The position numbers and the translations under genes were made by a program. Shown piece by piece: positions 2,321 to 3,859 of a stretch of DNA of 64,000 bases. Numbering within the stretch: position 1 is the first letter of the stretch; each line of letters begins with the position of its first letter. The notes below the pieces were generated by a model that was given only the letters and a program-made list of their open reading frames with translations, was not told the origin of the DNA and made no database searches. Source of the DNA: Gardnerella piotii (GTDB taxonomy: Bacteria; Actinomycetota; Actinomycetes; Actinomycetales; Bifidobacteriaceae); contig NZ_QJUV01000001.1 of the NCBI RefSeq assembly GCF_003397585.1, forward strand, positions 186,001-250,000. The letters are read 5' to 3'.

Positions 2321-2764
2321 GCGCTCCGAATTCGTTACATTTGTCTCGCTCGCGAGACGTTTGTAACGCTGGCGGTTTCCCGACTTTGTACCAAATTTGG
2401 CAAATAGTTCGCGCGTTACAGCGCGCTATTCCTCGCGGCTATTAGTAGCCGCTCGGCTGATTTGGCATGTAAAGTCCACTGGACTTTACATTTGAGCCAA
2501 ATCACGCTTTGAAGGAGCTTGAAATGCGTTATGCAATTTCAAGCTCAGTCAAAGCGCTTTACTTGCGTTGAAAGCACACCGTGCTTTCAACTTTGAGCAA
2601 GCTCAGCGCTCCGAATTGGAAAATCGTTAGCGCGGCCTAAGCGCGCTAACGTCTTCGCCGCACAGAAGCAGTGCTTCTGTTTTGAGCGGATCAGCGAATC
2701 GAAGTGCATTCGCGCGCTACGCTTTAAGCGCTCATGCAAGTCGATTCGCGCTACGCTCTAAGCG
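2321..2764. repeat. non-coding block of eight to nine consecutive nested palindromes
   Basis: The ppk-FKBP gap (2277-2863) has no gene and is filled with back-to-back inverted repeats. Hairpins seen: 2333-2368 (CGTTACA...TGTAACG, inner GTCTCG/CGAGAC); 2403-2430; 2435-2452 (GCGGCTA/TAGCCGC); 2458-2504 (outer TGATTTGGC/GCCAAATCA, inner 12-bp arms ATGTAAAGTCCA/TGGACTTTACAT with one base between); 2506-2555 (outer GCTTTGA/TCAAAGC, inner GAGCTTGAAAT/ATTTCAAGCTC); 2554-2609 (inner GTTGAAAGCAC/GTGCTTTCAAC); 2625-2651 (CGTTAGCGCG/CGCGCTAACG); 2658-2689 (ACAGAAGCA/TGCTTCTGT); 2694-2749 (GCGAATCGA/TCGATTCGC). Direct repeats also occur: GCGCTCCGAATT at 2321 and 2606, and a 17-bp unit at 2714 and 2748 with one mismatch. 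No open reading frame fits. It could be a structured RNA, a palindromic repeat element, or a DNA-structure site; function unknown. Confidence 0.9.
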
Positions 2765-2863: not shown

Positions 2864-3859
2864 TCATGAAGCGTAGAGAATATCTACAACAAAGTAAAGC
2901 GTTGAATTTGCAGGAATCGTTACGTTTCCTTTTGCGTCCTTCTTGTCTTCTTTGCCATATCCATCTTCTGGCGGAATTACCAAAAGAACTTGTGATCCAA
3001 CTTTCTTTCCAGCTAAGCCTTTAGTCCATCCTGGAATAACTTGACCAGCCAGCGAGAAGTCTGCAGGAGTACCGCGCTTCCATGATGAATCAAATTGATA
3101 CAATTTTCCGTCTTTATCAGTAGTCCATCCAGTGTAGTGAGCAGTTACTGTGCTTTTTTCGCTCACCACTTTGCCGTTGCCCTCAATCAAAGTTTGAGAA
3201 ATTAGCTTTCCATTTGGCACGTAGTTATTCTTATCTAATGACGGTGCGCCAGACTTATCAAGAGTTACCTTTGGCAGATTTTCAGGAATATCCTTAACTT
3301 TGTTGCCTGTTGCGCGATCAAGAGTTTTCATTGCAGAAACAAGAGTTAACACCATTACGTACGCGTCTTGCTTAGTTTGTGGATTTGCAGGAATTCCAAA
3401 CGCAATCGTTGAATTAATCTTCCTGCCCTTAAGCAGCGTGTAGTAAGACTTGCTAGTAACACCCTTTTTAACAACAATTGAGCAGTCTGGCTTTCCTTGC
3501 TTCCATGTGTTCATAAGCTCTTTGCCGCTTTTAGCGTTGTATACAATGCCATTAGCGCATACGCGACTATTTTCTGGGATTTTAGCGCCATTTCCGTCTT
3601 GCAAAATGGCGTAAGAATTTGGCTTAACATCTATAGGCGCTGTTAATTCAACCTTTGGCTGCTTTCCTAAAGCTCCGCTAGCCTTAACGCCGCTTAAAAC
3701 GCTCATTCCAGCAGCGTTTGCTTCACTGCTTGCTGCACCATTGCTTGACTCGCTGTTTGCGCTACAAGATGCTAATCCAAAGCACATGGCAATTGCGCTC
3801 GCAGCACAAATTACTCGAGTTATAACTGATTTAGTCAAATTTAATTTGGTTTTTGTCAT
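2864..3859 (-). CDS. FKBP-type peptidyl-prolyl isomerase lipoprotein
   Basis: The first ~32 residues form a lipoprotein signal ending in the lipobox LASC, so the mature protein should be lipid-anchored on the outer face of the membrane. A Ser/Ala-rich linker follows. The last ~100 residues are an FKBP domain: VTAHYTGW near its start, the pocket-like FDSSWKRG, the GQVIPGWTKGL core that defines the family, and GYG plus IPANSTLYFVVDIL at the end. The middle section (about residues 60-220) has no fold I recognise. Expected role: prolyl isomerisation or chaperoning of secreted proteins. It is transcribed alone from a promoter region it shares with the gene at 4121. The ATG start is supported by the signal peptide directly behind it. 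Confidence 0.88.
   Translation of the reverse strand: MTKTKLNLTKSVITRVICAASAIAMCFGLASCSANSESSNGAASSEANAAGMSVLSGVKASGALGKQPKVELTAPIDVKPNSYAILQDGNGAKIPENSRVCANGIVYNAKSGKELMNTWKQGKPDCSIVVKKGVTSKSYYTLLKGRKINSTIAFGIPANPQTKQDAYVMVLTLVSAMKTLDRATGNKVKDIPENLPKVTLDKSGAPSLDKNNYVPNGKLISQTLIEGNGKVVSEKSTVTAHYTGWTTDKDGKLYQFDSSWKRGTPADFSLAGQVIPGWTKGLAGKKVGSQVLLVIPPEDGYGKEDKKDAKGNVTIPANSTLYFVVDILYAS

Follow-up and report, generated by a model that had tools for sequence, protein, structure and literature searches.

A palindrome block downstream of ppk as a probable pile-up of Gardnerella-wide intergenic hairpin repeats

Small palindromic repeats shape mRNA 3' ends, genome rearrangement and strain typing. The CGTC-tagged REP sequences are defined by a terminal unpaired CGTC, stems of 8-9 bp that start with A/T pairs, loops of 4-5 nt and a CCA tail, and some of their families were reported inside larger palindromes (PMC3733652); the same paper, which names neither Gardnerella nor Bifidobacterium, states the spread of CGTC repeats without a dedicated transposase as an open question. 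The pneumococcal BOX and RUP, in the part of their description drawn on here, have inverted ends and target duplications (PMC3049150). Among the mitochondrial hairpin elements, some were inserted without flanking duplications, and the types differ by complementary substitutions (PMC2800124).

Here, we have analyzed a block of palindromes in a stretch of 64 kb of Gardnerella DNA; this whole stretch is called the window. Gardnerella is a small-genome vaginal bacterium with several close species, and many of its homologous sites differ in their palindromes, which allows a direct comparison of filled with unfilled states. With a probability that we place at roughly three in four, the block is an intergenic pile-up of short, non-coding, non-autonomous palindromic repeats of the BIME/BOX kind that are found throughout Gardnerella. 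A prior description of these repeats in Gardnerella was not found in the literature searched, which included few subscription papers; this is weak evidence of novelty.

Structure and parts of the block

The block (2321-2783) lies in the gap between the convergent genes for ppk and an FKBP-type peptidyl-prolyl isomerase. Its parts and neighbors are the following.

39-2276, + strand: ppk, named from its translation
2289-2319, + strand: ordinary intrinsic ppk terminator with 13-nt arms and a T run, recognized as an inverted repeat; it lies outside the repeat and adjoins the block
2321-2332, + strand: GCGCTCCGAATT, 5' arm of an H3-type hairpin, of which 2321-2329 complements 2775-2783 (direct reading)
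2333-2368, + strand: nested hairpin CGTTACA(TTT)GTCTCG...CGAGAC(GTT)TGTAACG (from the sequence)
2383-2408, + strand: partial copy of a separate short palindrome family, TTTGTACC...GTACAAA (from a repeat search; 56 forward matches in its own genome)
2409-2427, + strand: H1-type hairpin TCGCGCGTTACAGCGCGC, preceding the A-unit (from the sequence)
2427-2556, + strand: A-unit (from 24 distinct aligned copies and pair counts)
2431-2456, + strand: hairpin of the A-unit
2458-2504, + strand: nested hairpin of the A-unit with TGATTTGGC arm, GTAAAGTCC tip and TTGA bulge
2505-2556, + strand: second nested hairpin of the A-unit
2562-2602, + strand: B module, an alternative H2 hairpin with CTTGC arm, TTGAAAGCAC tip and TTTGA bulge
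2606-2617, + strand: GCGCTCCGAATT, 5' half of an H3 hairpin split by the C-unit (3' half at 2750-2783)
2624-2748, + strand: C-unit (model R1, 133.8 bits, full length)
2625-2650, + strand: H1 of the C-unit, followed by the linker GTCTTC
2657-2689, + strand: H2 of the C-unit, with ACAGAAGCA tip and TTGA bulge
2694-2749, + strand: H3 of the C-unit, with loop GCTACGCTTTAA
2750-2783, + strand: loop and 3' arm of the interrupted H3 hairpin, GCTACGCTCTAA GCGAAAAGGC AGG TCGGAGCGC, forming the right end of the block
2864-3859, - strand: FKBP-type peptidyl-prolyl isomerase gene, named from its translation

An earlier note on this DNA had placed a palindrome block here, and it is indeed present, far beyond what shuffled sequences yield, although its right end is 2783 and not 2764, the last arm (2762-2783) being included. 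Furthermore, GCGCTCCGA (2321-2329) is perfectly complementary to TCGGAGCGC (2775-2783), so that the whole block is bracketed by a palindrome. Approximately 10 hairpins are readable in 2333-2783, five or more of which show two levels of nesting, and the block is clearly more structured than an ordinary gap, as the note had claimed. When counted with the partner within 60 nt, perfect arms of at least 7 bp cover 45% of 2321-2784, against 9.4% (sd 5) expected from 300 dinucleotide shuffles, and 9-bp arms cover 31% against 1% in shuffles; per 430-nt stretch, the coverage by 7-bp arms is 49% in the block and nowhere above 25% in the rest of the window. RNA folding returned z scores of -10.5 (+ strand) and -11.8 (- strand), and none of 100 dinucleotide shuffles scored as low. 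The statement that nearly every base belongs to a hairpin is fair for the predicted fold, but the strict arms cover about half. Rfam covariance models, applied at gathering and relaxed thresholds, gave no match for the block, and a repeat search of 2250-2850 revealed no CRISPR array of identical repeats with unique spacers; tRNA, CRISPR and known RNA families are excluded for the block, as far as tested.

The C-unit, approximately 125 nt long, contains three hairpins in the order H1, GTCTTC linker, H2 and H3. H1 is of the TCGTTCGCGCGG-TCTAA-type loop; H2 has a short arm, a nested tip and a 3' TTGA bulge, and is preceded by a CGTC string in most C-units; H3 has a 9-bp outer stem, a small internal loop, a 10-bp inner stem and the loop GCTACGCTYTAA. 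The A-unit likewise has three hairpins, a simple one (GGCTATTAGTAGCC core) and two nested ones, of which the first is H2-like and the second H3-like, while the B module elsewhere stands in for H2 inside C-units. The make-up is modular, with variable order of the modules: one arm type can carry different tips, and hairpin tips are swapped between units, a single tip (GTAAAGTCC/GGACTTTAC) being found inside both GCCGC and TGATTTGGC arms. The outer arms of H2 occur in at least four complementary variants. The two kinds of direct repeat previously noticed in the block are real, and both are accounted for by this anatomy, since GCGCTCCGAATT (at 2321 and 2606) is the beginning of H3, and the 34-nt direct repeat (2713/2747) is the H3 loop plus 3' arm, in one complete and one half copy.

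Copies and their turnover across Gardnerella

A DNA search with the block found its pieces spread across its own genome (1.51 Mb) and 11 other congeners. These 12, out of 112 congeners searched, are all Gardnerella with genomes of 1.5-1.8 Mb, and the remaining 100, generally with larger genomes, produced no match in the same search. A profile of the C-unit (model R1, 125 positions) gave 47 matches in the own genome, between 11 and 52 in every one of the 12 Gardnerella genomes, and none in six congeners of other lineages; since the matches mostly span the full unit, the C-unit has definite ends. It is to be noted that a first RNAalifold consensus of the C-unit failed, as H2 variants of unequal length misalign, which left R1 an almost pure sequence profile; the covariation tests were therefore run on the A-unit and H3 alone. 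The A-unit (2427-2556) is likewise multicopy, and a 29-base core of it occurs in named records of Gardnerella vaginalis and G. swidsinskii and in two ‘Bifidobacteriaceae bacterium’ strains, whereas plasmid records, phage records and viral contigs had no match to the repeats. Overall, the units are dispersed, have discrete ends, number dozens of copies per genome, and are mosaics of hairpin modules, which supports the suggestion of a clustered palindromic element with many dispersed copies. The reading that palindromes simply built up locally in the ppk gap, with no wider meaning, has practically no chance of being correct, being refuted by the dozens of copies elsewhere in the own genome and by those in 11 further genomes. 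The earlier note had associated such an accumulation with absence from related strains and lack of covariation, and neither held, the repeats being present in 12 Gardnerella genomes and their stems changing on both sides.

The copies are intergenic, residing in 44 tandem, 16 convergent and 9 divergent gene gaps by simple ORF calls, and the prevalence of tandem and convergent gaps is as expected if insertions elsewhere get removed. An orientation bias relative to genes was considered and dropped, because the ratio in tandem gaps, 12 versus 2 in the own genome alone, weakened to 29 opposite versus 15 same when two more genomes were added (p = 0.05, with clustered copies counted separately). Along the chromosome the spread is uneven: in G117 (C1, 1,667,406 bp, with dnaA at 571), all 34 strong C-unit matches lie outside 409-1041 kb, the region around the expected terminus, and the own genome has a similar gap in C-units at 597-1023 kb. 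Such unevenness, and the occurrence of palindromes with conserved unpaired positions, would suit DNA sites that help to organise the chromosome, structurally or by binding proteins, a role proposed for REP/BIME with gyrase, Pol I and IHF. Nonetheless, such a role is very improbable, given that homologous sites hold wholly different contents from one species to the next, unlike a required site, and that orientation relative to replication, also discarded as a regularity, was inconsistent between the two genomes compared (G000, the own genome, and G117).

Two other distributions were observed. The palindrome TTTGTAC-N19-GTACAAA is represented by 56 forward matches in the own genome, against 40 in G014, 9 in G009 and 4 in G117, and by none in the remaining eight Gardnerella genomes; frequently arranged in tandem with a 54-nt period (e.g., G000 C2:382884-382970 and C2:1307469-1307609), it is a lineage-specific expansion. 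Separately, a Gardnerella-type B+A repeat is located in Arcanobacterium sp. S3PF19 (NZ_JRMX01000004.1, L094:1274-1520), just after an RNA methyltransferase-like gene, a context as in the Gardnerella loci L048, L022 and L023, and constitutes the sole R1 match in that genome. It looks like the result of horizontal transfer, with an integrative element as the carrier, or else of contamination, and the copy was not amplified; with its matching gene context, this copy illustrates that the repeats are a sensitive marker of transfer.

Homologous sites document the turnover of the units. The C-unit of the window splits another unit's H3, whereas another Gardnerella genome (L017) has that H3 intact, with GCCTTTT in place of the C-unit, and the intact sequence is also found in G. 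vaginalis GED7760B (L112). The homologous site of L017 additionally carries more copies, in tandem, of the nested hairpin of 2333-2368. Of 16 copies of an 86-89-nt palindrome (GAGATTCGAGATTTTTCG...AAAAATCGAGAATCTC), 11 are unfilled and 5 have a C-unit at one and the same loop position, and the C-units of the filled copies carry three different H2 tips. This palindrome is itself repeated across Gardnerella (L009, L053, L054, L078, L084, L086, L120 and L125, with further loci at L130, L139, L142, L143, L152, L154 and L158). At a homologous site that is filled in G117 and unfilled in G009, 16 loop bases were replaced, and no target duplication was seen in two clean comparisons of filled and unfilled states (16 and 7 target bases replaced), which are few cases. 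When four gaps of the own genome were compared with relatives, the unique flanks aligned closely and the middles were entirely different palindromes. Tips and arms are swapped as complementary pairs, and the C-unit occupies the loop of a palindrome that also exists unfilled, the change at each site being either a gain or a loss; a preference for palindromic targets is seen in only a few clean cases. One short state in the own genome (L046:3115-3120) is more readily read as the outcome of a deletion between TAAGCG microhomologies than as a virgin site. At the ppk/FKBP site of G014 (L061, L017), approximately 1.7 kb that includes one gene lies between two hairpin blocks downstream of ppk, and palindrome clusters may bracket gene gain or loss there.

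The size, intergenic position, copy number and nesting of the units are similar to those of a MITE, which would be moved in trans by the ordinary DDE transposase of an insertion sequence. This origin is unlikely, however, as target bases were replaced and not duplicated in the two clean comparisons, the ends of the C-unit (TCGYTCGCGC... and ...GGTCGTCGCGC) are, on direct reading, not inverted repeats of one another, and a partial search saw no insertion sequence with matching ends.

Stem changes and possible routes of spread

In 24 distinct copies of the A-unit, 96% of the cells are paired; where a cell differs from the commonest pair, both sides have changed in 43 and one side in 2, and slid controls, in which the partner was moved by 1-3 columns, contained 0-5 both-side cells. 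GT and AC make up only 2 and 6 cells, respectively, among 1188. For H3, 47 distinct hairpins contained 68 both-side cells, against 1-22 in slid controls, and the observed score was reached by 0 of 500 shuffles; in both sets the both-side counts come from related copies, so that the events are not independent. Since one-sided and G-U steps are nearly absent in the A-unit, its sequences suggest that the two arms change together, by hairpin-templated correction or whole-hairpin replacement, more than by slow RNA selection; both-side changes can also arise by selection for structure.

These data bear directly on a structured regulatory RNA (3'-UTR element or small RNA) that is repeated genome-wide and whose fold is kept by RNA selection. 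The suggestion of an undescribed structured RNA had been made for the block, and it keeps some plausibility insofar as the stems do change on both sides, in excess of shuffled and slid controls; the strong folding (z of about -11 on both strands) and the conserved unpaired motifs (loop GCTACGCTYTAA, TTGA bulge, GTCTTCGC linker) also agree with it. It is nevertheless quite unlikely, because the A-unit pairs are nearly all Watson-Crick, where RNA selection would leave G-U intermediates, the units occur in both orientations to genes (29 opposite and 15 same in tandem gaps), whole units are gained or lost between species at one site, and Rfam has no match. Overall, the near absence of G-U and one-sided steps, the exchange of whole tips, and presence or absence at homologous sites favor a DNA-level repeat.

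Candidate mobilising enzymes were searched for in the 12 repeat-bearing genomes. A Y1 transposase (PF01797) was absent from all 12, while 5 of 14 controls were positive, and it was rejected as the mobiliser. A reverse transcriptase (PF00078) was detected in one genome only and not in the own genome; the lone reverse-transcriptase-like gene is at G117:C1:1142897-1143295, in an open frame of 509 aa, and the other 11 genomes have none. An RNA-intermediate retroelement with an encoded reverse transcriptase was likewise set aside on this 1 in 12 occurrence. The genes between copies are ordinary (an amino-acid-kinase/PUA protein, an Obg GTPase, an ORF6N protein), with no transposase.

For a DNA-level repeat, the spread and diversification of the units would come about through template switching or gene conversion, acting on hairpins while these are single-stranded DNA, or else through a hypothetical hairpin-acting enzyme; both fit insertion in or beside palindromes, replacement of target bases and exchange of tips, the spread being read from site comparisons and not from transposition as such. 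The units would land preferentially in or beside existing palindromes and be tolerated in intergenic gaps. If transcribed, they would probably be passive 3'-end hairpins, protecting or processing mRNA. We also consider, tentatively and with some doubt, a hairpin-into-hairpin mobility in Gardnerella, whereby a putative structure-directed enzyme, or hairpin-templated replication, would put modules into the loops of other palindromes or swap them with such loops. It would operate without a Y1 transposase, target duplications or, in 11 of the 12 genomes, an encoded reverse transcriptase and, if true, would be a new route for non-coding repeats to spread. The mobilising process is the more interesting question left by the Gardnerella repeats.

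Comparison with known repeat systems

In being dispersed, non-coding, intergenic and modular, the Gardnerella repeats have the features of interspersed intergenic palindromic repeats of the BIME/BOX kind, broadly defined, whereas two features of MITEs, terminal inverted repeats and target-site duplication (the latter judged in few cases), were not found. They resemble the BIME and GTAG-type REP with RAYT (PMC3733652; PMC3116915) in being short intergenic palindromes of high copy number, clustered and mosaic. They differ from these in that the units are approximately 125-130 nt long, with three hairpins, several of them nested, and also in that no unpaired GTAG foot is present in the aligned A- or C-units and a Y1 transposase is found in 0 of 12 genomes. 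With the CGTC-tagged REP (PMC3733652) they share palindromes without a dedicated transposase and the CGTC before H2 in most C-units; nonetheless, the Gardnerella H2 combines a bulge and a nested tip with a 5-bp G+C arm that TTC sets apart, and stem, loop and tail differ from the CGTC definition.

The pneumococcal BOX, RUP and SPRITE, in the part of their description used here (PMC3049150), are likewise modular, about 100 nt long, highly folded, intergenic, clustered and mutually inserted. By the same portion of that description, BOX and RUP are set apart by inverted ends and target duplications, which were not seen in the Gardnerella repeats, and the exchange of nested tips in Gardnerella has no counterpart in it. 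The mitochondrial repetitive hairpin-forming and double-hairpin elements (PMC2800124, and works cited there) are similar in comprising single, double or multiple hairpins, but are organellar and shorter, and are not the three-hairpin unit. The features that are the Gardnerella family's own are the three-hairpin unit, the nested tips exchanged between arms, and the C-units residing in the loops of other palindromes.
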